Below, piece by piece: positions 64-36,000 of a DNA stretch of 64,000 bases. Made by a program: the position numbers and the translations under genes. Under the pieces are notes generated by a model. The model was not told the DNA's origin, did no database searches, and was given only the letters and a program-made list of their open reading frames with translations. The stretch covers positions 563,001-627,000 of the forward strand of contig OX387201.1 in NCBI GenBank assembly GCA_947561715.1, written 5' to 3'. Origin of the DNA: Ascidia mentula. Its lineage: Eukaryota; Chordata; Ascidiacea; Phlebobranchia; Ascidiidae. Every line of letters begins with the position of its first letter. The stretch's first letter is position 1.

Positions 64-99
64 CTGCATTTTTTCGAGCATGGCGAACAGATCGTCAGC
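64..99 (-). CDS. RAP1GAP: E13: exon with first half of a GoLoco motif
   Basis: This 36-nt exon is read in phase 0 as ADDLFAMLEKMQ. The acceptor is TTGTTGTAG and the donor CAG|GTAAGA. The residues match the start of GoLoco/GPR motifs, which continue with a basic residue and a D/E-Q-R triad in the next exon, here off the window. Vertebrate Rap1GAP has DLFEMIEKMQG and Rap1GAP2 EFFEMLEKMQG at this place (established knowledge). GoLoco motifs bind GDP-bound G-alpha i/o. Phase 0 at the 5' end agrees with the donor of E12. Confidence 0.72.
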
Positions 100-3000
100 C
101 TACAACAACACAACAAGTAGAAAAACAATCACAACAAACAACAATTGTGACGTCACGGCTGACGTCATACCGACGGTGCAGTGGGTGAAGTTGGAAATTT
201 AGTGTGTGTCGGAGTGTGTGGGCATAGAGATATGAAATTAATGAAAAAACAAGGAGCGAAAACTCATTAATTCGGGTTTGGTCATGCAAGTAAATTAGGG
301 AGGGACTTTCGCTGGATTTAAACCAATCAGCGTCGTCGATTACACGAATCGGCGTGATAATTAGACTACAGAAATAAAATGCTTCGGACACCGAGCAAAT
401 CGCACACACTATTGAGAGGTTTGCTAGGCACACACAAACAAATTACTACAGCTAGATACACCAAGCGCTACTGTTTATTGTATCAACTACAGTCAAAATT
501 AAAACGAGTTTCGGAGTTGGGAAATTCCTTAATAATTCTCCGCAAAAATTTTACTATCACAGGTTTTTGTTGTGAATTATTTGTGGTCATTGCCAAAAGC
601 GGATTTCAAATTTCGACACAAGCGCAAATTTCGGCTGTAGATGATTTACAACAAGGCAGTAGCAAGCAAGCGAGCTCCACAAAGCAGAGAAACAACACCA
701 CTACAAAATAAAACGACTCACCTTTTCATTAGTTAATTTTCCGCCACTAGAGGCATCGTCCGAGCAGGGGTCGCATAAAACCCCCCCGTCTGACTCTTTG
801 CTGCAGATGCAAAAATGTATGTTTAAAAATATGCAAATGATGCGATTTGACGATAAATTTATTTTTAAACCCGTTGGAGAGATTTTTTGTGACGAGAAAC
901 ATTAGCGCTCAAGCGTTTTTAAAACCGCGCGTGATTTCTGAAAAACGAGCCCTGAAAAGGAAAATAGAGGCTCCGGAGCGCCAACTGGCGGCAAAGAAAA
1001 TATCCCTCTTATTTCTACCTTCTGGGGTGGTTGAGATAGGTGGCAAGCGCAGCCGCCTTTGCCACCCGTTCAGCCTTTGCCTTCTGTGCTGAGTGTTTCT
1101 GCAGAGATCCGATAAACCGCGCTGTTATTCGCAGCGTGTTTTTCTTCACTGGCATCCCGTACTGGTCAACCGTGAAATTTTCTTCGCCAACTTCTTCAAC
1201 CGCCCCGGGTTGATCGAAAGATGCGGCGGCAGAAACAGCAGCGCGACGATGTCGGAGTCGGCCGACCTGACCACCTCCCTTGTCCGCGGGACCTAAACTG
1301 CGAATCCTGCGGACTCCATGGGGTTGATGGAACTGGAAAGCCTGACCTTCAACCTCGGATGCGCTCTGGGACACGAAGTTGACCAAACTCTCACTGCTCG
1401 ATTGGGAGATCAACGCCCGTCGCTTGAGGACCTCAGGATCGGGCCAGAAGATGGTCGGAGCACAAGGGTACGGGAAGAACAAACCTCCCTCGTCGGCCGC
1501 ACTGCGGGGAAGCACCGGAGTTGGGGGGGTCAAGTGGGGGCGAAACAGTGACGCATTCACTCAACAATCATTCTACAAACATTCATTCTCCAAGCACGTT
1601 CTAGAATAAATGCGCCCTGCCCGAAAATATATACACGTCATAATTGGGTGTGTGGCGCAACAAACGAGCCAAGAATCGTAACTTTTTTTTTGAGTGTTTG
1701 TAGTTCGCGTCTTGGAAAAAAAATCGACCTCTCCATCGTGGATCGATGCAGATTTACCCACAAAGGTCGTACATTCAATTTCACCGACTTACATGCGGAT
1801 CCAATCATGCATTAAAATTATTCGGTCGATAACCAATCACTTTTATATTTACACAGCGCACTGTCCTTGTGACATCATACAGGAGCGCCAGGTTTGTTTA
1901 TTCTGGATATTGTGCAGGACGATCGTAAATTGCACACGAATTGATTTTGCTGCGACAGCAACTCTTGAGATGAACAAACATATTTTTGCACTTCAACTCT
2001 TTGTGTGACGTAACAGAGCAATTCAACAACGCTATTGTGACGTGAAAATCTGTTGGCTGAATGTGATGTTAACAAAGGGGGTTGGTTTCAGCGACACAAT
2101 TCAACTTTTTGCGGTTATGAGTTATTAAATGAACATTTTTGAGCATTTACAATGAACACCATTTACTCAGGTGGGAATGTGGGACCCCTAACCTGCCCAG
2201 TATCGTGTAACAGGATAACAAAGACTCTGGAATCGAGCCCTGTTGTTCAATTGTTTGACAGATTGTTGAAAATTCTCAATGAACTATTGAGTGCATTATG
2301 ACGCGACAAAGCTAATTGATTGATATTCTTCATAACAAAGCCGAGGTTTTTAAGAGTTGCGTTATACAATTCTAAAATAGCCTTTATTGTAACAAACACA
2401 TAATGCCGCTTCCACATTTAAACAACAACAACACACGAGAACATTTCCCGCCATGTCACAGACCTATAACCTTGTCAGCTACATTATGACCTTGATTTTT
2501 GGAGTAGGTTTTCCTGTCAATTTTGTTGGTGGATTGTTTTGCTCGACTGGGTGTCGCATACATTATTAAGAAGCCAACTTCCAGGTGAAGAAGTATTGAT
2601 TTCTTCGCCCGGTTTCTTTCGACTTTCCGATAACAAGCGCGGGGTGTTTTTATCAACTAACCTCAGAGATAAGTGCGTCCTGAGGGATTAAGACGGAGTC
2701 GTCACGCGAAACAACTCGGTAGTAAACATTGGGTGGAGAATCACAACAACAACAACAACCTTGACATTCGCTAACTTCCTTTTTTTAAGCAAACTTTGAA
2801 TATAGCTGCGACGACATTATTCAAATATCTGAACATTTTCGCAACTGACAAAACAATTACATTTGTTACGTAATAAAGCTTCGCGTTGTGACAAAATTTT
2901 ACCTACTTAACATTAGTGTCTCAGGATGGACTTGATATTAAATATAATAAAACACTCGACTGACTGACGATTACTAACCTGGAAAAAATCCTCACAGAAC

Positions 3001-6000
3001 TAAACGCGCTCAAATTTGTGACCTGTCGATTTAAGAAACTTCAGTTAAACATGACAGCCTGGTGGAAAATATTCTTATCACGCGACAGCAAACAAGAGTT
3101 ACAACCTCGTATGTGGGACCAACCAACCTTACAGGTCTTATTCAAACATTGACCAACATCAGAAACTGCGCCCGTGTAGCTGAGTGAAAAGTGGGAGAAA
3201 AAGGGTGGGCAGCTTACAGATAAACAGTTGCATTGGGCGCCCGACGTGTTCAATTGTGGCTTACAGCAGATGCTTTCGCAGGTTCATCTGCGTACAAACG
3301 GACAGCTGCTCTAATTGCGGCGACTCATTGAATGTTATTGCGGGAATATTGTCAATATTACGATGGAACGAAGGTTTAAACCAATGACAACTTTCATTGC
3401 TTAGTAACCGCCTGATTGAATAACACGAACGTACTGAAATAACTAAGGCGCTGATCAGGTATTGCATTAACACAAAATCCAACATGTATGGAGTTTACTC
3501 ATATATTCTGGTAATGTAAAATGTCCATTGCATGTTTGCAGAATATTCAGGCTGAAACTATGGCGTTAGAGGCCTCGGCTGAAGGCAAAAAGCCTTGATA
3601 TAAACGCTATTATTATCTACTCTATGTCGCGGTATATTCATGGTAACTCTTCTATCTGTCTGCTTCGTACACACTTGCTATACCCGTGACAGACAGAACG
3701 CTAAACGCACGTGAATCTCAGACCTCTTAAAGTCAACACGAGACACTTGAAAGCAATACTGAGTATCAAATCCAAACACTCCTATGCGCGTTCAAGCGTC
3801 ACCGCCGGTCTTTTACGTCACAATGCTCCCTGTGAGGTGACAACACGCTGAGGTGCGTTCTTTGACACCACCACGCGAAGAGCGGCGGATATGAAGGCGT
3901 GTATGATGTAACAATCGATACGGTTCACCCCCCAACACGCGGGGGAAATAAACCCTCCCCGTGTTCTTTGTTATTGATGTGATTTTAATAAGAAGCTCGC
4001 GGTGAAAATATATTTGCAAACACGATTTTTCGCCGCCAACATTCATCAAAGCTCGGATTAACTTGTATGACGTCACACATTTTTGTAGGCGTAAAAATAC
4101 TGTGGATTGACCGCCTTAAATAGACGTGAACCAGACCTTTGAAATATTTCAATTTATTTACTTTGTAAGTCTATCACCGTAAATAAAGTTGGAATATTCA
4201 ACAAAACGCGACGTGAGTTTAGGATCATCAACTTTCAACATTAAAACTAAAAGTAAAAACAATCCCACACGGACAATGGTTAGGTTGTTTCTTAATTGTC
4301 TCAAACAATTTATAAAATCCGACCATTAATTATAAACTAAATTAAAAACCGCAAACACACAGATAAGACGGCGACAGAATGCAACAATTACATGACATAA
4401 TCCTTCATGTCGTTCAACCGTGTTAAGTACTTGTGTAATTATATGCTCCCCTACGATAACTAATAAACCAATCTATATTCCACACTTAGCTTAGACCATC
4501 GTAAAACACAAGCCTCAATTTTTTTACACAGACAAAACTGCTTTCGAATATTACCAGACAATAAGCCTGTGTTAAAGCCAGCTCACAAATCAACCACGCC
4601 ACACGGAACCCAGTAGTGCCCACGTATTATTGTTGTGACGAAACAATCACCTCTTCACGTGAAACAATGAGACCACTTCGACAAAACATTTACCACTGTT
4701 AAAGTACTCGGGTGCACCACCTTGCGGACGAAGTTATAAAAGTTTTATAACACTTGCAAATGGCGGCGGTGTTTAATAAATAATATCGCACGCGGGGCAG
4801 TTTCAAAAGCTGAAAAACGTTTTACTGAAGAAAAATGCCCGTTCATAACTACATAGTTTCATGCAGATTATCCCCGATTGATTTGGCAGCTCGGGGTTTA
4901 GCGTGAAGTGGTGACAGATGTAGTTGCGCGGATACATCCTGGTCATACGAGGAACCCCGGCTCATCCTTCCTCTCACACTTCCCACCACACGACAATCGA
5001 CAATTGTGACATCACAGAGCGCATACTGTGACGTAGCGTGATTAAAAGAAAGGTTGTCGTTCCACAACAACGCGGAACAATAGCTCTGGTGCATTGCATC
5101 GATTTTGTTAGCGTAGCGATTCATGTATTATGAATTATTTCAGAATAAACCGCGGCGCTCATGTCAGAGGGGGAAGAGGGGTTTAACGATTTCTGCAGAA
5201 GCCGAAGCCTCACATAATATAATATGGCAAAAATGATGCTGACGTCTTTTGCACTAAATGCGAATATAACATTGCTGTATGCGCATCACACACAACCTCA
5301 CAAGCACACATGAAAACCATTCATCCATCACATTTAAGTTTCGCCCCACTGTGACGTCACACTTACCTGGCCGTAACCGCCGGAAGGTAGATGACGTCAT
5401 CGTCATCTTCGTCGGATGAGCAGACCGTGGCGAGGTAAACGCGATCGCGATAAGACGCCATAACGAAAGATAGGGAACAGAACAGTTCTAGAATTGTGCT
5501 AGGGAGAAGCTGCACTGACGAAAAAAGTCTTTGTGACATCATAACAAAACAATTTTGGTCAAGAAACAAAAAACTTTGGTTTTATCTCCACTTGAAGCAG
5601 CAGCAACTCTGCAACAATCCAGTAACAACACAGCTTCGTTCTGAACGTCTTGTGATGAACACCCACCCCCTTTCGCACCTGACTGTTTTCGGTCTGTGCA
5701 CTGAGGGTGGTTGCATGCGGGGAAATGACATCAGCCTTTGTAGCTGCTGCTGTGACAAACCTGCTTGCCATGAGGAAGTGCAATCGTTACGCGTAGACAT
5801 TCAAGTTTGTCAATTGTTTTCAAAGTTTCAATATCTAACTGGCCACTAAGCTCACAATGAAAATCTGAGTGCAATAATTTCACCTTTTTTTAATCTTCTG
5901 TTGGTCAGTAAAAGTTGATTCTAAAACTTCATATTGGAAGGAATCAAATTCGACTTGCCTACGTCACGTTTCGAAACAGGTCAGTTTAATTTCGAGTAAA

Positions 6001-9000
6001 CTGCTCTGTTTGTTGTTCTAATCAATTTAAAACCTGGAGCTGGCAAGGCGTTTGCGCACAACCGGTTTAAACAACAACAAACCTCAAAAAGCGCACGGAC
6101 ACCAAACCAACGTCATCGCGACCCATTATTCTGATTCGTTTCACGAACTTTAAGAACATCGATTGTGACGTAACTTCGGTTCAATTGTTCGATGAATCAC
6201 GGCAAGGCCTTGCTTCATAAAGTCGCGATTGTTTTGCAAAAGCTGTTCTGCTGCAAGCGAAGTTATTGTTTGCCTGCTGCAGTGATGTTGTTTTTGGGAT
6301 CAATTCAACCATACAACGTACACCATGGCGTCAAGAAAGGTGTCAACTTTGTAAACTTTTACACAGTTGCAAAGGTGTCAACTTTGCAACTGTGTAAAAG
6401 TTGAATCTCCAAATGAACTCAGTAAGAACGTTTCCTTATTTGAACCAAATCTGCAGTAATCACCCGACTAGCAGTCCAGTAAGCTCACATAACTTCTCAC
6501 ACTCAAATCAACTTCGCATCCGTTCGTAATGCGGCTAGATACAATCAAGCCGCCGCCCACATGAACATGTTGGTACCTTTTGGCTGAGCAAATCAATACC
6601 TACTTCAAACCACTCATCCTTAATCGCAATCCTGCCTTTACCATCATCAACTACACTCACACGCACGATTCTCAGCCCTCTCCAGCGCTGTTATTTCTCA
6701 GGGGGTGCCACCATCATCCATGCATGCATTCCTATGGACTTGGGCATTTCTATGGATTTTGCTGACATGAAATTCGAACCACAGAACAAGCTATCTGGTG
6801 AACTTTTGCTGTCACGCAGATATTATCGTTTGAACTTGCTTCACAAAAACACTTCATTTAACTGAAATGAAAAAATCCTTCAGAGGTTGATTTGCGAGGG
6901 GATCAATGCATAACTGCCTCGTCGTAATAAAGGCGATTAGTGGCGGAAAATCGTCATTTTGCATTAGGGCCTGTCACGTGCCTTTGTCTTTATTGGGGGG
7001 GAAGTGCATTGGATTAAAAGCAATGAATAATTTACGTCCAGTCACGCAACATTTTAACGAATGTTTGCGAAGGCAATTGAAACATTCCCTTTTTAATACA
7101 TTTAAACGACGTTGGTACCACTCTGGGGAAAAGTCAACAATGCGATTCGACCAATAAGAACACAGAGAAACTCGTAATATTTCACTCCAGCACAGAACCC
7201 TAACATTGCTGGATTATAAATTCGCATTTCAACTACAGCTCGTGATGTGAATTTCACCCTACCTCAGGTCAAACTACTTTACAGCAAGAAGTCATGGGAT
7301 TTCAACTGTAACAAGTTATTTTAGTTTTTGGTGATGCAGTTTGTAAATTGATGAAACGACTGGCAGTCAACATCCTGCCCTACGATGGGAAGTCGGCAGA
7401 GCGGTGACAAGTCCCGTATGTTTACGTTTACAAAGAGCAGAATCGTGTGATAAGGTAAACACGTGAGTTGCATGATGCCGTTTTGACTGCGATTAACGAG
7501 GGCGGGCGGAGGAACTCGAGTGGGAACTGATGCTTCCTATCATGAACGACTTTCATTGCATCCGTTCCCCAGTTCCTTACAATTAATTGTCAATCCAATT
7601 TCATCAGTCTCGCTTCCGAAGCAAGTGTTAAACGAAACCAGAACACCATCTTGAAATATATTTTTGACAAAAACAAACAATTTAAAATCAGCAAGGAATC
7701 TGTTTTTCTGGTACAATAAAACATTGACAGCAACACAAGGCATTTTTTTTATATAGTCCAATCTATTACGATAGTGGCCTATTGCAAATATCTTCGTGGC
7801 CTCCACCATGGCCCTCAGACTGGAAGCCATTGATCTAAAAAAGAAACCAGAACCAATTCTCCAAAATCCACAAACGTTGAACTGAACCTGCACTTCCTTG
7901 ACACAACTTAATACAGACAAACTATTCCTGTTGCTCACGACATTAAACTAAAACTCACAAGCTTGTGAGAAACCCTCAGGTCGTTCAGCTCAGTTCTGTA
8001 TCTGCCACCAAAATATTATTGCCCTCACAATCGCTTAAAGTACTGGCGATCTGGTCGTGAAAAAACAAATTCAAGGCCCATCTCCGGATGTGCACTGTGA
8101 GGAAAAACGTGGAGCAGATCTGGAACGCTCCCCAAGCAAGCTTAAGTACTTCCTTGATATGCAACCGACCAAGCTGGGAAAATCTGCGACGCTGTTGTCG
8201 ACTGAGATGAACTCACAATTTAACGCTCGCAATTTTTCACAGTAAGTACTTGTGGATGACTTGATTCAACAAATCACTCAAGCGCCCACAACTGAGAACT
8301 GTACGGTTTGGGTCGACTTTCCATCTTGAGGGGTTTAAAAGCAGACAAAAAAAATATTTTCGTAAAAAGATTTTTGAAATTTAAAGACAACTTGAGCAAA
8401 AAGTTTAATTTTCTAAATCTCCAAATAGGCCAAAGTGACGTAATCACAATAAGGCAAGCAAATGCCGTGAAGCGTAACAAAAATATTGCCAGAAAATCAA
8501 AATCTAGTTAAACCCAAACTTTGCTAACTCTTTAAGGAGCGCTACGAGCTCAGTGAAAACGCCTTAATTGCTAAATTTAACAACAAAGACAAAAAACCGC
8601 ACCTTGAATCCGAATCCCACGTTTTTGCCGTCGCTTCGAGCGCTGATTTACGTTTTTTTGACCCAAGGCGCCTCCTAGGGGGCGACGGGGTCCAGAAATT
8701 GTGGCCACTGGGTGACGCCAACAGGCCACTTATTGGTGACCACTTTCGGCTGGTATCCGGGCTTGTGTCTTGGGCCGAGCGGAGAACTTCAGTTGCCGCC
8801 CTTCGCCTCTGCAGGACTTTGGCGTGGGGCAACGAAGAAAACGAAGCTCTCAGCTCTGCTTTCAGGGAAAGTCTTCCGCTTGGCGCCGGGCTCTCTTTGG
8901 AACATTTGCTTTGATCTATGACGTCATCGGCGCTGTGACGTACCGAGAGTCGTCGGAAGGACTTCATGGTTGCTTTTGTAACAGGTTTGAACGCGCGAAG

Positions 9001-12000
9001 TTTAAGCTTAAGTTCCTACAGTAATTACTTTGATTTGGTCTGATTGCAAAAAATATTTCGAATCAAAATGATGCATTTGAGCGAAGAAATTTCTCCAAAC
9101 ATCTCCAGAGATTGAACTTTACTAAACCTCACACACGCCCGTGTTTAAAAGGAAACTAACCTGCTTGTTGTTGCAAATTTTTCTTAACTCGCAACGACCT
9201 ACGATACGCAAACAGTCGTAACCGATTTTATTGCTTTAAACCGAAGCGCCTTAAAGGTAAGCGGTAAATTTAATACAACGGTTAACTACTCAGCAGCCAT
9301 ATGCCGCACACTTAAACGCAATAAGCCTAATCTAATTACGTACATGCTTTCTTTTTTCACTTTAAATACTTCATTTCGCACCATCAGTTCGTTTACAACT
9401 AGATGACAGAACTCATACAAGCTTAACCGTCACCACAGTTGTTAAAACACTGCCAGTGGTTTATCGTGGGCGGCTGCATTCAGTCACCGACCTTCCCTCG
9501 TTCCAACTATCTCTCACACTCCCATGGGACAGCGGCAACTGCTGTCGGTAGAGAAGTGTCCTTCTCGTCGTATTTCAAAGCGGTTGTGTACACATCCCAG
9601 CTAGAGCTGCCCATTCACCCACTCAATACTTTTCTATATCTCCATAAACACGCGAGTATTGCACGGTTTAACACCGCACCGATCGAAAGGCCAGAGTTTA
9701 ACGAGGTATTATCGTGAAAAGTAACACGACCCGCCAGGTTATCGCCACAGAATATTCGCCTGACTGTTATTCGACGGGCAACCTCAAGTTTTCAAAGCGA
9801 TACATCCTGCTGATACACTGATAAGGCATCGCCTCCCAACTTTTCCGTGAACGTGATAAAGGAAAACTTTTCACCCAAACCTGAACTGTGGAGACGAGGG
9901 AAGCAACACGCACTGAAGCTATTTTAAATTTAACATGAAAACAAACCAACTTTTGCACTTCCTCACAATCACATTATTGTCAAGACCACTTCGGGTTATG
10001 CATGAAATCCTGAACGTTGCTTACGTAGGTTTGTGCAAACCTCAAACCAGTTGGCGACTAGAAGCTTACAGTGCAAAGCTTGCATTGCCTGACGAAGTGC
10101 GAACGAATCATGCAAGCAAAGTCGTATTGAAGTGAACACGTAAGCTGGTTGCAAAACTCTCTCCGATATAAACTTTCGCTGCTTTGTGAAAGTGTCTTTC
10201 TAACTGATGCAGTTCATAATCGGTCATTTTAGTGGGAGTTTGCCCTGAAGCAACTCAACCAGTAATGTAAAAAAGTGGGAGGTGGTTGAAAGTCGCAGCA
10301 ACATTTTCTTCCGGAAGATGTATTAATTGACAACCAGGCTGCTGCATACCCGGTACACATACAACTGAAACACTGTAAATATATATCGGCGGAGATGCTG
10401 AACTGAATAGAAGTTACGATACTTGGTCGAATAATGATTAAAATTTAGCTTCTGTCAATTGTTCTTCTGTTTATGAGTGACGCCAAAAACAACAAGTGAC
10501 GTAGCTACAAACGTCAGAGTGCGATCTGAATGACCTGAGATAACCTTTCACGGACTGTTGCGTGTCCATTTAAGCGTGAATTATTAGAAATGATAACGAC
10601 TCAAGAAGAATTCAAGTGTTGACTGTTTTTGGAGAAAAATCATAAATGCGGAAAATCCACAATTAAATAAAACTAATAAACTGAGTCCAACAGTAAAAAA
10701 GTTTTGTCATTTTCAAGATGATGTCATTAAACTGATAAACATTTTTAACCAAAACAATATCTGAGCTTCAGTTGACTTCAAGCAGATCTGACAACTTTTT
10801 GGGTATTTTCAGCAGCAAACAATTTCCGAAAAGACCCTGAACAACTGATAGCTTGCATCTTCACTGTCAGGTCGCCTACAAACTAACAGTGAAGTCACAA
10901 TGCCATTTGTGGCGTGAGAAAGCATCCACTTGCGCGCGCAGCGGGAGAAGGGAAGCAACGAACATCATCCCCACTATGACGTCATAGTGTGAACTGTTGT
11001 TCAACGTACTTGAAAGCGGGAAAGCGTTTGACAGACTGCACGTGTTGCAAAAACACTTAAAACGCCACAATTTCGGTTGAAATACTTTGGGGTTAACATT
11101 GTGACGTACGGGTACGTCACAAATCTCTCCAACGGGTTGTTTTGTTGTACAGTTGGGGCATAAGTTAAATCAAAACACGAATAAACATAGACTTACCGAG
11201 CCGTTTTCAGTGTGAGGGGAGCGTCACATCTGTAAATTAAAACAGAACACATAAATACAGCGAAGTTTGAACTCATCATGAACAATTACTAGGGTTCGAT
11301 CATTTGGTTGAATAAAATAACCGATATTTACAAAAAAAGCAGCACAGACACTAATTGTAATTTCCCATCCAATATCATCTGGAAATTAGTTCGCCCGCTG
11401 CGAACGTTTCGTATAAAATATGTTACGTGGATTAGCCTGAATACGACGCGTGAACCTTGGTTGAAGCAAGTGACAGCCATTCAGTAACTTGGTCACATGA
11501 CATGGAGCGACACGATGATTGGTCGAGCTTACCTGTTTTCGGCTCGCGACTTTTTGTTCCTTAACACTGGAGGTCGCACAGTGTCGAGCCACTTTCTCTC
11601 GGGCATTATTTTGGGTCGCGCGAACACGTTCTAGAATTAAGTGCTCACGGATGCAGGCTTACAGAACGCGTTAACCACTTGCAATAATAAACAGTCTATA
11701 CTCTGGGGAAATAAACAAGGACGTAATTGACTTGGCATGAGTTGGTCGGAAAAGGGTTTGAAGCTGTGATTTGTGGAAACAAGCGTCCGCGCGCATTGTT
11801 TGCTCACAATCGTCCGCCACTCGAACGGCTTAGTGATGTCACAATTGTGATTCATTTCGTACGCACGATGCTGCGAAGAAATTCTACCCAAGACATATTT
11901 TTTACAGTTTGCTTGCTGCCTCGTCTGGATTGCAGGATTCTATATTAGTATTCAGCTCCTTTATATCATCACAGTATTTCTAAGTTTGGTTACAATTCTA

Positions 12001-18000: not shown

Positions 18001-21000
18001 GAGTAACTTTTGCATAAACGCCACGCGATCTGCATTCACAAACGCCGGTTGATCTATGATGTCATAAACGATAGACAGTCACCACTCGTACGCAATCGTC
18101 CACGTGGAGAAATCGAAACGACTATGGCGTCATAGACACTCGTCGTAACTCCTGACATGTCTTGAGCGGGGCGAACGTCCATTGAATCAACCGCTGGGTT
18201 TTTCCTGGGGTGTAACGCGGGGTTGATTATGACGTCATGTCTGAGCGTCGACCAAATATGGCAGCGTGGAAAGTGTGTCAGGGTAGGTTTATGGAAGATG
18301 TGATTGTTTTGTAATAGTTCTACTTTTCCACTTAAGTGTGGAGAGTTGGGTCGTGTGTAAACGCTCTCTTTGCGGCTTTTCGACAAAAAATATTTAAAAG
18401 CTGTCGCATATAAAAAGTAACGATAATCGAATATAATTTCACGGGAAGCTTTGCTCAACCCAAACATCCTCGCAAATTTGATTCTAACATTCGTGAGCAC
18501 GATATTAATGCGAATTGACCTTATTAAAATTGAACTTTGAACTCATGACGTAACCTTTGCCCCGAGATGAAAGAGACGTCAAGGCGAGGCAGCTGGTGGT
18601 GACATAACAATGTGCTTCCTGTTGCGTAATAAAGCTTCTGTCACGGCCTGATAGGTTTTGTATTATCGTGGGAGAGAAATAAAGATTTAGAAGAAAAAAA
18701 ACACATTAGAATATTTTTTTACGAGCTATGGCCAAAACTGTTTGTTTTTCAACGTTCAGGGGGCAGCAGGAATATAATAGAATATAATATATAAATACGA
18801 CAACACGACAATTCAAAAGTTAGAAGGTAAACAAAAATAATAAATACCAGGTACCAACTGAAACCTTGAGGTCTTACGCTAAATAGTAAAGCTCTCCTCA
18901 AAGCTAATGAAATCAATGCTATTTAGCGCCCACTCGTGGCCATACACAAAACCAATCTGGTCCACTATGTGGCGGGAGAGAAACCAATGTAAAAAAAATA
19001 TACGGCCACGAGGAATTCTGGTACAATAAAGTTTATGAGGACTACTCATACTGCGCCTGCAATATATAGGATTGGTCAAATAGATATTAGTATGGTCTAC
19101 ATATCACTGCACTAAGCGACCAAATATCTGAATTTCTCCCAACATCAAATCGCATAGCAGCCACAAATGAGACGAAACTTTCATTCATGCGGATATTTTG
19201 CGGTCCGCTGATCCGATTACTAATGTTTACGTACAAATAGGCGTCTTTTCTAATCACAATGCTTTGGTGTGGCTTGAAGGACTTGCGCTTAAACACCGAT
19301 TAGTCAGTGTTTTGTAACGCTCGGTATCACCTCAAAGCGGACAAATACTACTTGAGGAATTCTGCTATGCAGGAACAACAAAAGAACTGAATAACAAACG
19401 ACATTTCTTGAGTTTTGTCATACCGCATTAAAGCACTAAGAATTAATTTCCCCAGCATCTTCTTAGAGATTTGAAACACTCCGCAATCGAAATCAAAGAA
19501 ACTATTCGCTAACATTTATGTTCAGTTTGTTGGAAAAAGTTTAAGAATACCCAGAAATTAAAGAATTGACTTTAAACAATGGCACGCGAACGAATTTTTC
19601 GGGTCAACCTTGGTCGCGTTTTGAAAATACCTTTTCTTTCCTTTCCTCCTCTCAGTCGGTCTCCAACGACTTCCAAAAGATGACGAACTAGAACTGGATG
19701 ACACGGAAGAGGCGGAGGACACTTTCCTCGCCTTTCTGGCTCCAGCTTTCCGGAACAATTCCTCCGCGATCTGATGCTCAGGAAGAGACTGCCTCCTGCT
19801 CGCGGACTCGGAAAAGTCAACGGAAACCGCGGGTTCGTCTTTCTCTGCGCTGTTCGAACGCGAGATGCTGAAAACGTTCTTCAGCAAACTTAAACTCGAA
19901 ATAGAATTCCTCTTCAGCCCAAAAACATTCGGCAAAGATCGTCGACGCGATTTCTTTGTCTCAGAATCCTCAGGAGAATCTTTCTTCTTTCTCAAAACCA
20001 CTTTAACCGAGGGTTCCCGGTGTCCAACCGAGTCTGTTTTGCCGCCAAACGAAACTTCGGCACTTTCAGGGGTCGAAGGTGACAAACTTGCGACGTCATC
20101 ACTCTCCTCCCTCGGTTTTCTCACAACGGTCGATGTGTCTCTCGTTTTCGTCCAGGCCGAATCAACATCCGCGGAAAGATTCACATTTTCCGAACCAGCG
20201 ACCAACGAAAGAGGTCGAGCCGTGACGTCAAAAGCACGAGTCTTTCTGACGTCACTATCGTTTGATTGGCTCCTGGTGATAGTTAGATGTCGGAGGTTGT
20301 TTGCCAGACCGCTGGCTTTCTCCTCATCAGGGATATCGGAGAAGATCGGGAAAGTTTTCGTTCTTCCCACGTTGAAGTGGGTGGCGGATCTGACCTTCAG
20401 CGGGGTCGAAGGTCGACCTTCGAAACTTGTTCGGGGTCGTCGGGTTGGGGGGAATCGCGGGGTCCATGGGTTCTCGTAACAAGTGGGGAATACCCTTTCC
20501 ATGGGGTAACTGGATATCCCCGTGGTTTCTTTGTCAGATTTGTAGAACATTGCTCCTGTCTTAAGAGACGACGAAGAAGAAATCGCGGTCGTTGACTGAT
20601 TCATTGTGACGAAACAATCAATATTTCACATTATTCAAAGAAACTGATCATTTTTATCTGTGAAGAAAAACGTCAGAAATTTGGTTGATGGACAAAAAGG
20701 TTCAAACTGCTTCCATGATTACAAAACAAATGTTTCTTTGAAACAACAGTCACAACATTCTAACTGCTATGAGCCCGACTTTCCGCAACTAAACATGTTT
20801 ATGCAGTGTTTTCAAAATTCCTCAAGTTCTGCATACAACAGCAAGCTAAAATGCACACAAGGTCTAAAAGAATAGAAACCGAGTTTAATCAATGAACTTG
20901 CAACTTTCTCTACGCACATCCTTCATACTTTCAGTCACTTTCAACACAGACTTCTGCGTCAGAGCTAAAGTAACGTAAGTGAAACTTTTTAACAAAAAGC

Positions 21001-24000: not shown

Positions 24001-27000
24001 TTTGAAAATTGAAAATGAGAGCTTGTGGATTCGGTTAGCGAGCATGGCTTAACACAGGTGCGTGCTTAACGCTATGTTAAGGTTATCGGCGGATGTTTAG
24101 GTTTAACGCATGGCTTCTTGCGCACTTCTTGTCGGGATGTCGGTTGAGATCGACCACCGGTCTTGATGACGTCACTAGATTAACCACAACGACATCGAGA
24201 TGTTCATAGTTGGGACCTGTATTGTCTGTGAGAGCCTTTCCCGTGTATTTACCACATTTTTATATCGCACGGGCTTTCGACTAATACATTCTCCAACTAA
24301 AGTTTCACTACCAAACAATTTGTAGTCCGAAATCTGCGGGGAACCCGAAAAACACACAAAAAAAAACACGCTTTAACTGATGTCTCTGCAAACAGCAGAT
24401 TTTTCTGCACTTTTCGACCTCGTTGTCTGATCTTGGTTAAAACCTTCGCAAGCCGACAACCTACATTCTCACAACCCAAACCTCATCGTTTCCAGTTACA
24501 CTGATTCCACCTAACTTGATGACTCACATGACCAAAGCAAATACTTTTTGATACTCTGCTTTGGACGCCGACGAGTTTGTGTGTCGACTAACAGGAAAAA
24601 TCTCCTCTTTGCTTACTTAGATGTAAGAGATGCGGACATGTGGGTAAATATTTGACAAAGAATCCCCTCACTGTATCCTCAACTCATGTTTCGAGTGGTC
24701 GAATGGGGGAGGGTAATAACACAAGATATTAACCCTCCGCCCGTTTAACGACGCATTCGTTTCCACCGTACGGAAACATACTTGGTTACTCATATCGTAT
24801 AACCGACTATTGATGGAAGCCCATGTTGAAAACACAATAAAATTATGAAATTTAGTTTTTTGAGAAACTTTTACATCGTGACAAACCCGTTTTTAATTGA
24901 AAACGATTTAAAGTCGCTTGAAACCAATAAATGAAACTTGCACTAAAGGTAACAACACTGAGCAATACTTAGTTAATAGCACATGTGTTAAAGCCAAAGC
25001 GAAGCTAAACGCCCACAAATCACCGAATGTCTCTTAAAAGATTTCATTAACTATCGTTTTTTTGCCACAATCAAAAGTCGTCTCGATAAACTTCATCCGT
25101 GTTAATTCTGTGCGCACAACAACATTTTCCCTGCAATCGCTCTTGGAAGGTCGCATTCTCTAACCCCAATTGCACCGAATCTCCTTAAAAATGCCGACGA
25201 TAAATGCAAAGGGCGAACCACCAACACCCACGAATAACCACAAGTTACCGCACGCAATAAGGTTATACGTGGTTTGTCTACGCAAGCAAATTTATCCGAG
25301 TTAAACCTCATTGTTGAGTGTTGGTGTCACAACGACAAACAGTTTTCTATCACAATGCTTCAACCTCACATTTCATACATTTGTTTTATACCCGATTTAT
25401 AAAATATATGACATCTTATAACCTGAACCTAAAGTTATCAAATGAATCCGAACGACCAGGACTCACTATTTTCAATTAAAAGTCAATATTTGATATAATC
25501 CTCTGTCATATATCGCTCAACTTGGCAACTTTACACCTTTCCGTTCCACTTAAGCCAACACAAACTGTCCAGTTTGTAACAGAAAATCGAATGTCCGGGG
25601 AATAAAATCAGCACAATTAAATCCCGAACGGTGCGGGATCGATATAACGGCTAATTAAAGGTGACAGTTGGCTCGTTTTCGCACCCTACAGCTCTGGAAC
25701 AAGGCGAAAGGTTGCTCTACAGGGAATATATTGGTTTTAATTGGCGAATCTTGGCGTGGTTCTGCTTCAAGGACGCAAATACACACGGTCCTTCATTCGC
25801 GTTTGCGGTAGTTGGCATTTCAACAAACCACCCCCAACCTTACAAAGACACGTGTGACATTCCGAGTTTGAGGAAATTATTTAAGTCACCGATCCACTGA
25901 AATGTTGAGGAATTCGAACGTTATTGGTCAAAACACCGAGGTTATTTAATTTCTATGATTGGGGGGGGGAGGGGGCGGCTTCACACAATGACAGAAAACC
26001 GAATGAATTTGGCGAAAAAAACTAGAGCTGACTTCCTTGAACCTCAGCACAGCTTTCGACTTTAATCAAAATGCCAACATTCAAAGTTTCCGTCTCTCTG
26101 ACCTTTACTATGGCAGCGGCAATCGTCTGCAGCGTTAAAGCGGCTGAAATTATGCAATCGCAAACATTTGTTCACTGCAACCAAACTATGAAGTGAAACT
26201 GAAGCAAATTTCCAGCTGCATCTCCGCATCTGGAACCCGACCCTGGCGACCGGAGCGCTCAACATATGTCACGCCGCGCGACCTCTGCTCTATGACGTAA
26301 CAAACTATAACGTTCCTTCAGTTTGTTTCAGCGCGAAGAACCAATTGTTTACCGAACGTGTTTGTTGCAAACTGAGCGCGATCAATAATTTCATCCCCGT
26401 TCTTCATTTGTTTTTAATGGAGAATTCCTGAACGCTGAAACAATATTGACGAAAATATCGCATTGTGATCCGGCGGTTTTCATGATACCGGGTTCGATTT
26501 ACCACCACTGTTCTATACTCGTCAATGTGTTTCTGGAAAAGGCGCATGGGTGCGTTTTCTCAATTGATATCAATTCGTAACTATCGCTGCCACAAACTCC
26601 TTTACACTCAAAACGCCGATATAAGTACACATTATACTATTACGGTATTGAGAAAATCATGTCAATATGTTTGAATGAGACGAAAAAAATGACTAAGAGT
26701 AAGAAACGTGAATTCGTAGAAATCAAAATTACCAGAAATTACTGAACATTAACTCGAAGTCTGCATTCTCCATTTCAGCGCTATCTTCTTACTTGCAATA
26801 CAACTTCTACAACGGACGTACATTTGCTGCTGTTCGCAAGAGACCTGACTTCACAGTGCAACCAGCTACTGCATGCAACCCCTTCCACACAACCAACCGA
26901 AACGACACAAAACCGACAAAAACGCTCAGATTCAGCTCCAGCAAAAAAGTGAAACGGCGTAAGGTCGTGCGCAGCGGGGCGTGACGGCGCCTGAGTGACT

Positions 27001-30000
27001 CCCAGGTCACGTGACCGATTGCCAGTCGTGCTTTGAAGGAGGGAAAACCTCCCGTGGCTTAAACGTCCATCCCTGCTACCACGGGGGTTTGGGACATGAG
27101 TGATAATGGACGCCACTGTGACGCCGCGGTGTCGAACGCTTGGCAATTTGCTCTCAGTGACGTCACGCGATGACGTGGATACTGGGATAGCCTTGAGTGT
27201 CGAGCACACTTACATTGTTATACAGGAAAGTTTGTTGCTAATATCTAAGGAACTGACATTCCGACACAATTAAACTTTGATTTGATTCCATCAATAAAAT
27301 AAAGTCAACGTTTCATTGTGTCGGAATGTGAGTTTCTTAGAAATTAGCAACACAATATTCACCACTGATAGTTCCCAACCTATAATTTATCATTTACTCT
27401 AACCAAGAAGTCAATATGTATATCACAGTTGCCAACATACTATTGGTGGAATTCCAGTGCGCGCTTATAATGCAAATATACATTCTCCTTTCGCCCGCAT
27501 ATCACACAGCACACAAATTTCGCCAAGAGCAAATTCTTCACTGATTGGAAAGTATTTCAATTGCTGGTTTCTCATAGAAACGCGGAGACCACCGCGCAAG
27601 ACAATTACCAACGCGACATCTCCTGTCTATCGCAATCTGGATGTGATTCCACAACCCTGGTTGTACGGTCGCCCCCACTTATTTGGACGATGTCAATTGT
27701 GGGGTTTGGGGTATACGTAGTATTAGCGGTTTGCGGAAGAGACCGTCAGTTACAACGTGGCATTCTTGCGCGTTGTGAAAAAGAAACACTTCATGCTATG
27801 TGTTAGTGAAGTGGATACAGATACGGTTTAATTTAACGCGTTTTAACACTCAGAATCCTCTTAGCACTTTACAAACTGTCACATTCGTTGTCTGCAGCTG
27901 CTCCTATCAACACGCTTTGCTTTGACAAATGCTTATCCACAAAACGACGTCCTCGCTTTATCAAAATCTAGACTTCTCACAATTGGGGGTAAAATGTTAA
28001 AAACCAGGTCTAACCCAATCCGCAACTGAAAATTTCTGCAGCGCAACCAAAACATCCGGGCAAGGAATGACCAGGCATTAAACGTTTGCTTGAAACCCCA
28101 ACAAGGAAGTGAGACCTCTTGGCAGGTCAAACGAGCGCTTGGAGCAAGTTTCGTTCCTGGTCTCGTTTCTTAGGAAATGAGCGGACATACATGGTTTTCA
28201 CCATATAAGGGCATACGCGTAGGCTCCCCAGGGTTGAAAAAGTGGGTGAACGTTGCAATAATGCTTCAGTCTGATATTAGGAAATTATTCGCAACAATGT
28301 AAAAAAAAGTTGATCTGTCTGCAGTTCTTAATAATTATTAAGCTCTTTTAATTTTGCTGTTCTATAATATTGTTAATAATTAATATTTGATTCGTATATT
28401 GCACACCAGCCAATTATTCCTGCACGATATCCCAAAGGACAAAACAAGGTCCACACAAACAGAGCAAAATTATTGTGGCGTCACATGTTGTAGTGACGTC
28501 ACAATCGATTGCGAAAAGCAATAAATCGAATTTTTGTTCTTTTCTGCATTGCAAGAACATACATGAAACTCGCGAAGTGACAGCTTTTTCAAATGTTAAA
28601 TTTCTTTTAATATTACAACAATATGTTTTAGAAGGGGCTGGACAGGGGAATCGAACCCACAACCCACAACCTTTTACAAATTCCTATTTATTCTCAGAAG
28701 TATTATTCAAAACAGTTTGACTCGTAAAAATGAGGAAACAAATGATATTTTAAGTCAGACGAACCTAAAAGATCCTGATTGATTTAATAAATCGTGCAGC
28801 TACCGATCTGTGTGACAAGCATTTCTGACAACTACCATCCGTTTTTCTGTGGAATGAATGATTTTCCGACACGAATCGGAGTGAAAACATGTTAGACCAC
28901 TGGTTTTTAACCTTTTTTCGGTCACGCCATATTTACGCATTGCTCCATGCATTCAGGCCCCAGGTAACGTTCAAACAAATGACATCCCCAGGTTAAAAAC
29001 TACTGTGTTGTTCATCTTTATGTAATCAAAACAACTTAACACAACTTTTAATAATACTGCTATCAACTACACGCTGTGATGCGTTAAAATTCACCTGAGC
29101 TCATCTATCTATGTTATGTTATAGCATTGTGATGTAACAATACCTGCAATCAATCCTTTTGCAAGCCCCACTGACACAATAAATATAAACTCGACTCGAC
29201 TGGCCAAAACCGCGACATTCCACGCAAAAACCGACTAATTCATCGTTTCGCATCTCACAAACAGTTGATTGTCTCGTAACAACATCTAATTATGACGTCA
29301 AAGGCCCATAATTAACTTCCCAGTTCGAATGTGGAACGGTGTGATTCATGTGCGTTGTTGCTGGGTTCGTTTGAAGGCAACGACACCCACGTAAGTGCAA
29401 CGAAGTGTTTTCAGATTTCGGGCTGTGCGTATTTTTTAGCTTGTTTGGGATAATTGCATGCGGAGCTGACGGCAAAGTGTGGAAATGCTGACATGAAAGT
29501 TTTCAAATGGAATCGCGATTGGTTCCCATTGAGAGGACAAATTAACAGGACCCTTACGACGCTCCAATTAATTTAAAGATGAAAATCATGAAACCCACCA
29601 CAGCCCCAAAACAGATTAAACTTTTGGAATTGCATCATCACACCGAGCCTTAAGTGACAATGCGTCTATGCACAAAACAATTAAAACTCCAATGCAGGTT
29701 ATTAACTGTTGCGACATGTTTCACAATAACACTTTATTAAATTATAAGCAAAATAAATTACAGACAATATTAAATCACGTGACGTTTTGAATGGCGCAAC
29801 AACAATTTTTCACCTAAATTTCGCGGAACTGCGACATTTAAACGAAGATAAGCGACACGCGACATGCAGTGACTCACGGCTAAAGTGAATATTAACTAGA
29901 AAAAGACAGAACAAAACAACTCGTTTAACATATAAGTCATTGCAATACCTCATCGATATTCTGACCAACTTACAGATTTTCCACCTTCGGTTCATGTGTT

Positions 30001-33000
30001 AATTGCGGGTACTTATGTACCACGTGACCGCATCCTGTGTGACGCAACAATCGCAACCTGTCACGTTAACTTCCGGTTGCTACCACGGCGGGGATTTCAT
30101 GCAACAATATCAACGTTTATGACCCGACAAAGCACTATGGTGACGTAGTTTTGGTAAACACGCATAAATTGTCTCAAAACAAAGGTGTAACAAACAAAAT
30201 GCTTTAAAAATATCGTTTAAAGCATTTTGATAAAAACAACTGAAGCAAAAAAAACACACTTGATATCCTGGCTGATGATTTTTTTAGTAAAAATGTGACA
30301 ACAAAATCATAAAAAAAGACCTAATGCGATGTCAGTCAATCTGCAAATCCATGCATCCTGGTAAGAAGCCAATTTGTGCACAAACCTACTGCTGAGACGA
30401 CGTCACATAAACGCAAACCTATTAACACGCCCTTTAACCCGAATATCTGCGAAATACTTCCACAGCCATCGACATATCGTACTTATCCCAAAACACCTTT
30501 ACACAAGTTCCAACCCACGAAAAATCCCAACAAAACCTCGCTATCTCTGACCAATGTAACCCAACCACGCAACCAATCTACTATGACAACAATCAAACTA
30601 TCAACTTACCACATGAGAACAGAGCTCGACTATTAACTAGTAGAATGGTGATAGTAAGGCTACTCTGATAACGGTAACTGTACACTCAATATCATAACAA
30701 CATTATCATGGTGATTTTTACGTACACCGTGTCGAACAAAATTTAAGAAAAACGTTTAAACAACACTAAGGGTAGCAAACCCGGGGCTTAATCCTGTCTA
30801 TTCCGATGTAATTAAAAACTCTCATTGGGATATTTTCTTTGTGCTTGAAATCCTCACAGACACAGACACTGGTTCCTTTAATATCAGTGTTGGATTATTT
30901 GCAGACACCCAACATCCATCATCACTTTATAGCAAGAGACACATTAGCTAAAATAAATCTCTTCCCCAAGGGATATCGAATGCGAAGGAAAATAAAATGT
31001 TTTTAATTTCCGAGGAATACAAAAAATCGGTTTCGATCAACACATACAGGTTTTCAGTGCCCACATTTCAAACTCTGGTTTTTTTTCAACGTACACATCT
31101 TACATCACTATATCAGGAAACTGCTGACCCCAGGACGACGTAAAACACCACAAAGGACTGCAACCTCCTGTGAAGCAACCTAACCTCAACAAATAACTGT
31201 TCGATAAATTCTTCCACAAGATCAGCATATCCCCATTGCGGGTTTAAATTTGTGTTCAAACGCATCAGGAATCTTCGGTCGCCAAGCGTTTAAATCGTTC
31301 GACCCTTTCCTGGTCGGTTTCCTATCCATTCACCGCCAGCTTGTCGACCAATCAGGGACGACTTGAATGAAACGTCACAGACGATTCATTATCATTGCGA
31401 TTGTGAGGTCACGTCCACGAGGAGGCTATTAGGGTGGAAATGTGCATGGTTTTAATGCCAAGTTAGTGATGCTTTGCAGTCACGCCGCAAAGCAATAACC
31501 TCCAACCAACATCAAACAACATGACACAAACTATCAACCTCATTTACATATTACATTCAGTGTCTCAATATGTAGTTGGTCGATTATCGTCGAAAATGTG
31601 AGTGTGTGTGTTTTTTAATATATTTAATATATTTAACCAAGGAATGAGCCGTATAGTAAACTCCTTTGATAGAATGTGATTCTAGAAAATTCGTTAAATT
31701 CATGTTCAAGTTTGTTGTTGGAAATATGAGATTTTGCCAATTTCCCCGAAACAAAATTCATCAGCGAATGCGAAATTGAAAACCCTCCGATTCATCTCAG
31801 TACGTGATTAAAATAACAACTTGCCACTGCTTTCACTGCAGTAACGAATTTCCTCCGGCACGCAGCTTGCAATATTATGGGACACCACATCCAAAATAGG
31901 CGAACACTTATTTCAGAAGGTTTGCATGCACTGACTCATAACGGTTGACGTGGGATCACGCGAAACGTTGTGAAACGAGAAGGGTTTGCAAAACAAGTGC
32001 AGCGTGTTCCACGTTGGGGAACGCGAACATTTCAACTGGTTATAAAACGTTGTGATGGTGCGAAAAGAAGGAGAGCAAATAATTGTAAAAGACACCGTAA
32101 GTCAACTCTGAAAGTTTGTTTCACACGAACCGCTTAGTGCTAGTACAAGTTTGGAAACACAAAACCGCTTTCCTCAACCAGAACTTGGCAACAAAGCAAC
32201 TACAGTGCCAACTACACGGTGGCGTCTAGTCTGAACAACTTCACTAAAGAATTTGTGTATAAGCTGCAGACAGATGGCCACTGTTTCGACCTAAAAGGTC
32301 TCATCAGTGCAGCTGGTGTGACTATAAGACGAACTTTGCAGACCAAACGGCCAAGCAAAGTCTTCCACTTCCACTCACACCAGCTGCACTGATGAGACCT
32401 TTTAGGTCGAAACAGTGGCCATCTGTCTGCAGCTTATACACAAATTCATATTATTGGCTCCACATTGCTTATCACTAAAGAATGTTTAATCTGCACAAAC
32501 ATTCAATATCCCAACAATTATTCAAAATCACATCAGCATTCTAACTAAATAATTCTTCAATGTAGCCGCTTTAACTGGTTACGACAGGAAGCGCAACTAT
32601 ACTCACATCGGTTCGCGTTAAACACAGAAGACCGCGACTTATAGCGATGTGAAAATACTGTGGGTTAAAGAATGGGAGTTCAACGAAAGGACACGGGTAT
32701 AAAGTGGATGTGACATAGCGAGCACAGAGAGGGACAGGAAAAATCAGTCAATTCCTATCCGCACCAGTTGCTGCTTGCATACATCCACTGTGTAGACCGC
32801 CATACTCTAGGTTTAATAGAAACCACTGTTGGTTCTGTATTGTCATCTTGTCCTGTGTGAAATGTGCATTAGATTTGCTCTTAATAGGTTGCTGTCTCTT
32901 GCCTAAGGTTGGCTAAAAGTTCCCTGTTTACATTTGGGTTTTAGAGTGCTCTCGTTTATCTTTCTCTCTAATAAACGTTTTGTTTTGCAAAGATCAGAAA

Positions 33001-36000
33001 TCATAGCCTGGACATAAAAACACTTGTAACATATTCTTCAACATACCAATACATTAAGTTAGGCAAATCTCTATCGACAAACTTCACACAAACTCGTTTT
33101 AAAGCAAACCGAACCTCAAGAAATCCCACACCAGAGCGCTCAACCGATGAAAACGAATGTGGAAATTTCCTCTCCGGAAACACTGGAGCTCGGAGTGTTT
33201 ACGGAAAATATTTCGGGAAGACACGTGGGCGGGTGGAACGGAAGGAACGAATCCTTTTAAATTTCGTAATCGAAATTTGAATCGAACTATACAGTGCTGA
33301 GCAATGTTAACAAACACATACCAACACTCGATACCTCTTACATTACCAGGGTTAATCCAACATTTTACACACACCGTAGTAATACATTCACATTTCCCCA
33401 ACAGAACTCTTTACAAGGTGATTTATCTTCTTGGGACAAAAAGCTGCAACAAAGTTGAGAGCAAATATTGAACCACGGGGGAAAGGAATTGAACGCTACT
33501 GGTTTTGTTTGAAGTCAAACATTCAGCCAAACCACCCTTTCCCTTTTCAAAAAACGCCGACTGCAGAAAGTTCCTGGATGTTTTGGCAAAACAATACTTA
33601 TGTTCTGGAATGTACAGTTGTCTCATTTAAAGCTTCAATATATTTACCATCAAGCGTGGAGTTGTCCACCAAGATGCTACATGATCATATTTTGTTTGTT
33701 AGAAGAATGTCAAACAACTTTTGTTTTAACTTTTGTTGCTCTCTAGCGACATCTTGTTGCCGAATATTTCTGAGCTGTTTAGAAAATTCACCAAAAACTT
33801 TTTGCACCGAAAGTTCTTTCAAAACTTTTTCACAAGCTTTTATTGAACTCACTTCACACTTGGTATAAAAGATTACCCCGAACTCAAGAAGTTATTAAGT
33901 AAAACAACCACGACCAAAATCAAAAAATACTTAAAGCATTTGGCGGCAGAAACCTTAAACCAAAGCGTCCTCCCCAGCAGAGCTGATATCAACCAGAGGG
34001 AATCGCTTACAACAAGTTCGCACTGATTAATCACTATTGCATGGTCGCCACGTGGCCACATGTGCAGTTCATTAATGCACACAGCATAGCTTACGTGACA
34101 ATGTGAACGTGCCCGGCGCCTTCGAAGCGGAATCAGCTGGTAACTTTGACGCCCGCAGAGCGTTTTGGTTTCCACACCACCGCGTCACGTGACTACCACG
34201 TTCGGAAGACGTGGTAACGAGATGAGATGAACCGACGAGAGTTCAATACGGATGCCAGTTAATAGATTTCGAAGTGTGTTCGATCAGAGATGATCTTAAC
34301 GACCCACGCAGCAAATTTCTTGGAGAAACACAACAAACTTCTGCTGAAAGTTTGTGAACACAATTCAACCGAACTTGATGTTGGAACGAATCATCATTAC
34401 ATGGCTGAAGAAACGACGACTGTGTTCGTAACTGAAATGATTTCCACAGAACCAGCGAAGATTTGTTTAGCAAAGAGAAGAATTAAGCAACATAGCATGT
34501 CGAGTTGTACCGAAGTGATGATAATTCACAGTAACAATCAATCCTAATGTTTACACATGGCTTGTATTAGGTCTGGAATACTTACAATAAATCCCAATAC
34601 GGGTTCAAGCCCGTATGCTAATTGGATCAAGCTACACGACCGTGTATTCGGCTGACAACCAATTTCCTCTGATCTCTGTGGTTACTGCATTCACATGTGG
34701 AAGGAGAATTGTTCCCGTTTAAATGAAACAAGACACTCTGAACGTATACAGTATTCATAATTGGGAGCTGAATTTCGACTACCTGCACTCACGACACCTC
34801 GCACATTAACCAGTTGTGTTTCCTTGTGGTCCACTGTTGTGTGTTGAATGCAAGAAGGAGAATTTATTTGGAGGTCGACATGAAGTTTGGCTTCGGTGGC
34901 GTAAATATCATTCCAGCATAAACAGGACGATTAATTTTGTAGTGGAGTCAATTCATATAAATAAATTTTTTTGTTTTTTTCTTGAGTGACAGCATTTGTT
35001 GATTCCCCGACCGACCTGTCTTTTTGCACATATGCATGCTAACTTTGCAGATATTTTAAAGCGTTTCTAATCAACACAAACAATCCAACTTCCGTTTGAT
35101 TCAATAAGATGTGTTTTAGAATTATATTTCACAAAACTGAAAACATCTGATCTTATAATTAGAGACTTTTGTGCCAAACCGGGATTCGAACCCAGGATAT
35201 CCTGGTCACGAATCCCGAACGGATTTTCCTCATGTAAGGGTTGGGAGATTTACAAATGTTGCTGACAGAAGAGTCAACAAAAACAAACCTGAATATGACA
35301 GTTCTCTTGTGCCATCTTGTGGAAAGTATAACTGTTTTAAAAGCGGTATCAAGAATTGTTTTAACCCCAAACTGACTTCAGCAAGCAATATGATTAAATA
35401 TAAAAAGAGTATCAGAAAATACATGAAACCAAATGTAACAATCATTAGTAAAATATTTATGAGTTCAGGACAGGGCAAACCTAGAGTTCAAATTCACAAA
35501 TTTTTGTCCGATCACAATCTTGTTTTCAATCTAAACCCAGTCTAATAATTGCTTCCAATTTTGAAAGCAATTCATTGTTACGTTGGAAGGCCGTGTCACA
35601 AATAACATCCAAGGTTTTCGAACGAACATTAAAAAAAAACGTATAAAGAAACATTTTATTATTTATTTGAAACAACACCAACGGCAAAATAAGCCGTAAA
35701 GGTTACTTTAGTCTACAAAGCATGCAAGACTTACTTCCGACATTTGAAGCAATCCTTGTGGTAATGAACCGAGCTGACCGAGACGTAGAGTTCAGTATTT
35801 ATGTTGACCGTGAATCCGCAGCTGTGACATTTACTGTGCGATGATGCGCCGTCACTGGATGAGCTGAAGGCAAATAAACGACACAGGTTAGATGCCAAGT
35901 ACCTAATTCACCAAGGGTAGAAAGGTAAGATTAACTCTTGAAAATCAGTAGAATCAGACACAATCAGACACACGGTGAGCCATTGTCTTTATCGGCGTTA

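Follow-up and report, generated by a model that had tools for sequence, protein, structure and literature searches.

A Rap1GAP orthologue of the ascidian Ascidia mentula with a LIM domain whose inclusion appears to depend on the first exon used

Knowledge of Rap1GAP comes mainly from vertebrates and flies, and the locus discussed here raises the question of whether an ascidian Rap1GAP gene encodes a LIM domain in the same chain, and if so what decides whether that LIM is made whole. The window, meaning the whole stretch of DNA analysed, is 64,000 nucleotides (nt) of the Ascidia mentula genome (contig OX387201.1, positions 563,001 to 627,000). The gene is on the minus strand, as are all the exons described below, spans about 67 kb and continues beyond the left end of the window; coordinates are window positions unless marked as contig. 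An earlier note on this DNA, made from the letters of the window, had recognised a LIM exon and the start of a GoLoco motif and presumed that a Rap-GAP domain would follow. As read from the genome, one gene can indeed encode an intact LIM directly ahead of the GoLoco motif and the Rap-GAP dimerisation and catalytic domains, and inclusion or breakage of the LIM appears to be set by where the gene starts being read.

The 16 exons from LIM exon 1 onward, spliced in silico, give a single open frame of 626 residues, held throughout with the phases of all exon joins agreeing, and four Pfam domains are over their cut-offs in this one frame. These are LIM (E 2.9e-7, 31.1 bits with a cut-off of 22.9), GoLoco (PF02188, E 5.8e-8, 32.5 bits with a cut-off of 25.1, residues 82-103, with MDEQR at its end), the Rap-GAP dimerisation domain (PF21022, E 1e-27) and Rap_GAP (E 1.1e-62), so that the catalytic domain that had been presumed is present in full and in frame to the left of the window. 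The LIM reads C-x2-C-x19-H-x2-C-x2-C-x2-C-x18-C-x2-C, with a complete set of eight zinc ligands at the consensus spacing (LIM positions 1, 4, 24, 27, 30, 33, 52 and 55); its first exon by itself scores 18 bits, which is under the Pfam cut-off. Between the last LIM cysteine and the start of GoLoco, ADDLFAMLEKMQ, the spliced model has a linker of 14 residues, the spacing that the note had estimated. The Rap-GAP and dimerisation region aligns to the Rap1GAP structures 1srq and 3brw (E about 1e-105), and the N-D containing helix QRKRHIGNDIVA, whose asparagine we take to have a role in the catalytic domain, is identical in the 1srq alignment. RAP1GAP and RAP1GAP2 have the GoLoco, dimerisation and catalytic domains in the same order, and Rap1GAP of turtle (P0012) and rabbit (P0078) is about 50% identical to the A. 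mentula protein over the aligned part. On its predicted protein sequence the gene is an ascidian orthologue of Rap1GAP.

The LIM is divided among three exons. LIM exon 1 (35735..35863, 129 nt) carries ligands C1, C2, H3, C4 and C5 and ends in phase 2 after CRK; LIM exon 2 (11197..11229, 33 nt, phase 2 in and out) carries C6 in the segment CDAPLTLKTA; and LIM exon 3 (722..800) carries C7 and C8 together with the linker toward GoLoco. GoLoco exon 1 (64..99, 36 nt, phase 0-0) encodes ADDLFAMLEKMQ, and both it and LIM exon 1 were found where the note had put them. The D/E-Q-R end that a GoLoco motif should have is supplied in frame to the left of the window by GoLoco exon 2 (contig 560509-560447, 63 nt, phase 0-0), which encodes ATRMDEQR, and is followed by the Rap-GAP exons (contig 559753-555932) and C-terminal pieces to a stop near contig 554964. 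LIM exon 2 was revealed by listing the splice acceptors that precede N-TGY, and is supported by matches to Clavelina P0002, Ciona P0003 and Phallusia P0159; at exons 2 and 3 alike the splice sites are good and the phases agree. When the second half of the LIM was sought under strict settings as a single exon, one poor candidate came up, at 10364, and was rejected.

With regard to the exons upstream of this core, which were located by tblastn of the isoforms of other ascidians against the window, the mapping supports the view that transcripts can start at at least three places, of which two leave the LIM whole and one breaks it. Route 1 has the most distal first coding exon (59223..59328, MIRQNRPSRIVVKQNSKESF), a start at 59.3 kb that corresponds to those of Phallusia P0159, Clavelina X3 (P0168), Styela X2 (P0171) and Ciona X6 (P0135). 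Its internal exons, also placed by isoform mapping, are at 58078..58354, 52306..52542 and 51839..51995, with a last one at 45242..45325 that ends in phase 2 into the exon at 41.6 kb; neighbouring pieces were located at about 59.2-59.0 kb and about 58.72-58.65 kb with approximate boundaries. This route is in frame from the 52.5-kb exon onward, the earlier exons being located only. Route 2 starts at 42.7 kb with a first coding exon (42000..42709, donor gttagt) that corresponds to Ciona X3 (P0001) and likewise enters the 41.6-kb exon in phase 2. Both routes then share the exons at 41530..41606 (SDILRRLSPDRRKSPKTSTENLVEA), 40934..41069 and 40387..40524, again from isoform mapping, the last a basic exon (FSPRRSLKRLKKKQS) that adjoins LIM exon 1, and both go on to the whole LIM. 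Route 3 starts at 20.6 kb with a first coding exon of 974 nt (19631..20604), of which one copy was found in the genome and which is represented in Ciona X5 (P0003), Ciona X4 (P0141) and Clavelina X5 (P0002); it joins LIM exon 2 in frame, giving a LIM without C1-C5. Ciona isoforms X3-X6 agree with the mapped routes. The reconstructed frames of route 2, route 3 and route 3 with the cassette exon described below are open throughout. Whole and partial LIM forms occur within single species in Ciona (X3/X5), Clavelina (X3/X5) and Styela (X2/X7), and also in Saccostrea (P0148/P0169) and Trichinella (P0181/P0206).

A further source of variation is a cassette exon of 483 nt (1019..1501, phase 2-2) that sits between LIM ligands C6 and C7, where it would add 161 residues in frame. 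Among the set of 229 proteins described below, it has a homologue in Ciona X4 (P0141, E 1.3e-22) and a weaker match in sequence P0006 (E 5.5e-6). The 181-residue open reading frame at 1560-1015 was considered as the end of another gene and rejected, as it matches this cassette exon.

If the domains act as their families suggest, the Rap-GAP domain would turn off Rap1, and the GoLoco motif would tie the protein to G-alpha-i/o and so steer this off-switch. For the LIM we infer a cytoskeletal or adhesion docking role, as the note had done: it would be an optional module, most likely for actin- or adhesion-associated partners, that, in cells using the upstream starts, brings a Rap1 off-switch under G-protein control to particular sites, the promoter used deciding whether the module is included. 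A Rap1GAP orthologue with a start-dependent LIM of ancestral origin, serving as a Rap1 off-switch with optional docking, is in our view the best explanation overall and probably the right one. Instead of docking, the LIM might have an intramolecular role or one in dimer formation, such as shielding the GoLoco motif or the GAP face. The short linker, which puts the LIM close to the G-alpha-binding motif, would suit such a role, and it is this part that the cassette would alter; however a lone LIM domain most often serves to bind proteins, and we consider an intramolecular role unlikely, while still a serious possibility.

How widely the LIM is found bears on the age of this arrangement. We compared 229 distinct proteins, a biased sample made up of the best 120 of 4785 matches, 7 reported of 8 candidates from a search with the LIM-GoLoco part of the Owenia protein only, which says little on distribution, and the best 120 of 4559 matches to a profile of nine LIM-bearing relatives. 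In the first set Ciona LOC100183188 isoform X3 ranks first, with the same four Pfam domains in identical order and 66% identity over 100% of the 626-residue query, which argues that the join of LIM, GoLoco and Rap-GAP is not due to chance. Over the core the closest of 13 proteins compared is Phallusia mammillata P0159, at 87% identity. A LIM precedes Rap-GAP in the gene models of Ciona, Phallusia, Clavelina and Styela, and the domain order is kept in Ciona, Phallusia, Styela, Owenia, Haliotis, Patella, Octopus, Lineus, Acanthaster, Trichuris and others. By hand count the LIM model is present in 34 of the best 120 of 4559, which include ascidians, gastropods, bivalves, a chiton, octopus, Owenia, two nemerteans, Acanthaster and Trichuris. 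Of the 229 proteins, 35 fit a sequence pattern for a LIM with all eight ligands, Trichinella P0181 among them. A LIM profile run on the 229 gave 37 full-length matches (partly by construction, the profile being made from the 35 pattern-matched proteins and the A. mentula LIM), 15 from the exon-2 boundary, 29 at or near the exon-3 boundary, one without C7-C8 and one exon-1 piece, with no match in the other 146. The partial LIMs that start close to these two junctions come from Lingula, oysters, Trichinella, amphioxus, tunicates and others. The isoforms listed for some other arthropods, sea urchins and amphioxus have the exon-3 piece or exons 2-3 only, several of the matches being weak.

The profile found no part of a LIM in any of the 105 vertebrate proteins among the best 120 of 4785 (hand-picked by name, P0012-P0120 minus one beetle, one snail and two further entries), as the note had supposed for vertebrates, nor in any of the nine named Drosophila proteins among the best 120 of 4559. 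No non-bilaterians are among the named matches listed. The note had seen in the locus an unusual combination; that LIM, GoLoco and Rap-GAP stand in one tunicate protein is borne out, but it is not a one-off fusion, as the same architecture is found in four other ascidians, several protostomes and a starfish. It is thus most simply read as ancestral to bilaterians, with the LIM lost or reduced elsewhere, including in vertebrates and Drosophila. If so, the original bilaterian Rap1GAP would have united in a single chain the sensing of G-alpha, the inactivation of Rap1 and docking through a LIM, with docked and undocked forms chosen through the transcription start.

There are several points that weigh against this account of a start-dependent LIM. 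The exon joins in A. mentula are predictions from homology and splice signals, and one Rap-GAP exon to the left of the window (contig 559464-559343), ending TTGAG, requires a GC donor (AG|GCGAGT), the remaining donors in the models built all being GT. In Clavelina X5 the alternative exon contributes a cysteine at the spacing of C5 (CYKCDAPL), and the second zinc site of that LIM might still form. For other species the isoforms come mostly from automatic annotation, in which a 33-nt exon is easily missed, and some of the truncated LIMs may reflect errors made at this tiny exon. Where only exon 3 is matched, the alignment is short and its score low (3.7 to 21.2 bits), and the millipede protein P0153, one of the 37 full matches, is without the exon-2 segment. 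One could go further and suppose that most half-LIM isoforms are annotation artefacts and that the LIM is constitutive wherever its exons survive, given how easily gene predictors skip exon 2 and that the millipede model joins exon 1 straight to exon 3. Against this the 974-nt open frame of route 3 is conserved in Ciona and Clavelina, has an in-phase donor into exon 2, and is used by Ciona X4, Ciona X5 and Clavelina X5, and we regard a general artefact as improbable.

A reading in which the LIM belongs to a separate upstream gene and an ordinary Rap1GAP starts near the GoLoco exon gains something from the 36 kb between LIM exon 1 and the GoLoco exon and from the link in A. mentula being read from genomic sequence, but we reject it as very improbable, because LIM exon 3, with the last two ligands, runs in phase 0 into a GoLoco exon only 0.6 kb away and LIM and GoLoco stand in one protein in Ciona X3, Phallusia P0159 and further invertebrate models.

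In comparison with known systems, the Rap1GAP orthologue described here differs from the vertebrate proteins in that an intact LIM can be placed before GoLoco, and that the choice of N-terminal exon decides whether the LIM is whole. The orthologues of Ciona (LOC100183188), Phallusia, Clavelina and Styela have corresponding alternative N-termini as well as the LIM, and are publicly labelled as uncharacterised or as Rap1 GTPase-activating protein. A search of the literature on LIM with Rap1GAP or GoLoco, by title and start of abstract and with few subscription journals covered, found no description of the LIM architecture or its gating. The architecture itself is already in public gene models, and it is the gating of the LIM by N-terminal exon choice that is a new angle, one that can be tested in Ciona. 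Another related case is a PXN-like protein of Capsaspora, which also has LIM and Rap-GAP in one protein, but with four divergent paxillin-type LIMs in contrast to the single LIM here (PMC3305314). In the available part of that survey of the LIM superclass, Rap-GAP is named once, for the Capsaspora protein, and GoLoco does not appear in the main text. The LIM-Rap1GAP class is not named there, which could be because the bilaterians sampled were Drosophila and human only (PMC3305314).

The first exon of route 2 deserves separate discussion. It has one copy found in the genome and matches Ciona X3 (P0001) at 35% identity (E 5e-28). A low-confidence model predicts a coiled coil and then an RRM-like fold, and the top structural matches of this prediction are five human LINE-1 ORF1p entries, so that we tentatively place the fold closest to LINE-1 ORF1p. 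A sequence-level match to ORF1p was sought and not found, and a Pfam search to a maximum E of 10, in which the program's filters drop most weak matches, gave no family such as Transposase_22 for this exon; the Ciona counterpart piece gave a weak Tropomyosin match alone (E 0.22) to the same maximum. In contrast to LINE-1 ORF1p and its domesticated relative L1TD1, the exon is without a recognised C-terminal domain as well as without a found sequence match, and is one exon within a host signalling gene. The RRM reading gets no support from the full-length Ciona model, in which nearly all of the first 327 residues have a predicted local distance difference test score below 50, a model whose alignment mixed unrelated N-termini. 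A search of the genome with PF02994 gave no match, and as the control gave no signal this does not imply that LINE ORF1 is absent. It is conceivable, and we put it forward as a doubtful suggestion, that the gene has swappable front ends for a Rap1 off-switch, namely a LIM that is whole, broken or interrupted by 161 residues, and a coiled coil with a LINE-1-ORF1p-like RRM before the LIM. With this last front end, which Ciona shares, the Rap1GAP would bind RNA under G-alpha control and carry a LINE ORF1 domain domesticated long ago.

The GoLoco motif also varies among isoforms. Ciona X5 and X6 are without both GoLoco exons, and Clavelina X3 is without the first only, GTRMDEQR remaining in a truncated motif. 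The N-terminal variants 1a and 1b of human Rap1GAP1 are reported to differ in G-alpha binding, a truncated GoLoco favouring G-alpha-o-GTP and a full GoLoco G-alpha-o-GDP (PMC12329598). By analogy with this GoLoco-dependent preference, the choice of GoLoco exons in tunicates could be functional. In some molluscs (Patella P0011, Octopus P0122), and also in P0121, a second GoLoco-like motif (e.g. DFFDTLLKYQSARLDDQR) follows the first.

Elsewhere in the same genome a second locus has matches to Rap_GAP and Rap-GAP_dimer (C2:8516980-8521090, minus strand). A genome scan with PF21022, made exon by exon, picked up that other locus only and missed the split domain of the present gene, so such searches are insensitive. 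To the left of the present gene a lysine-rich open frame, starting MAEESDLEKDVLKFHQFF, runs on the minus strand from about contig 553380 and is probably the next gene.

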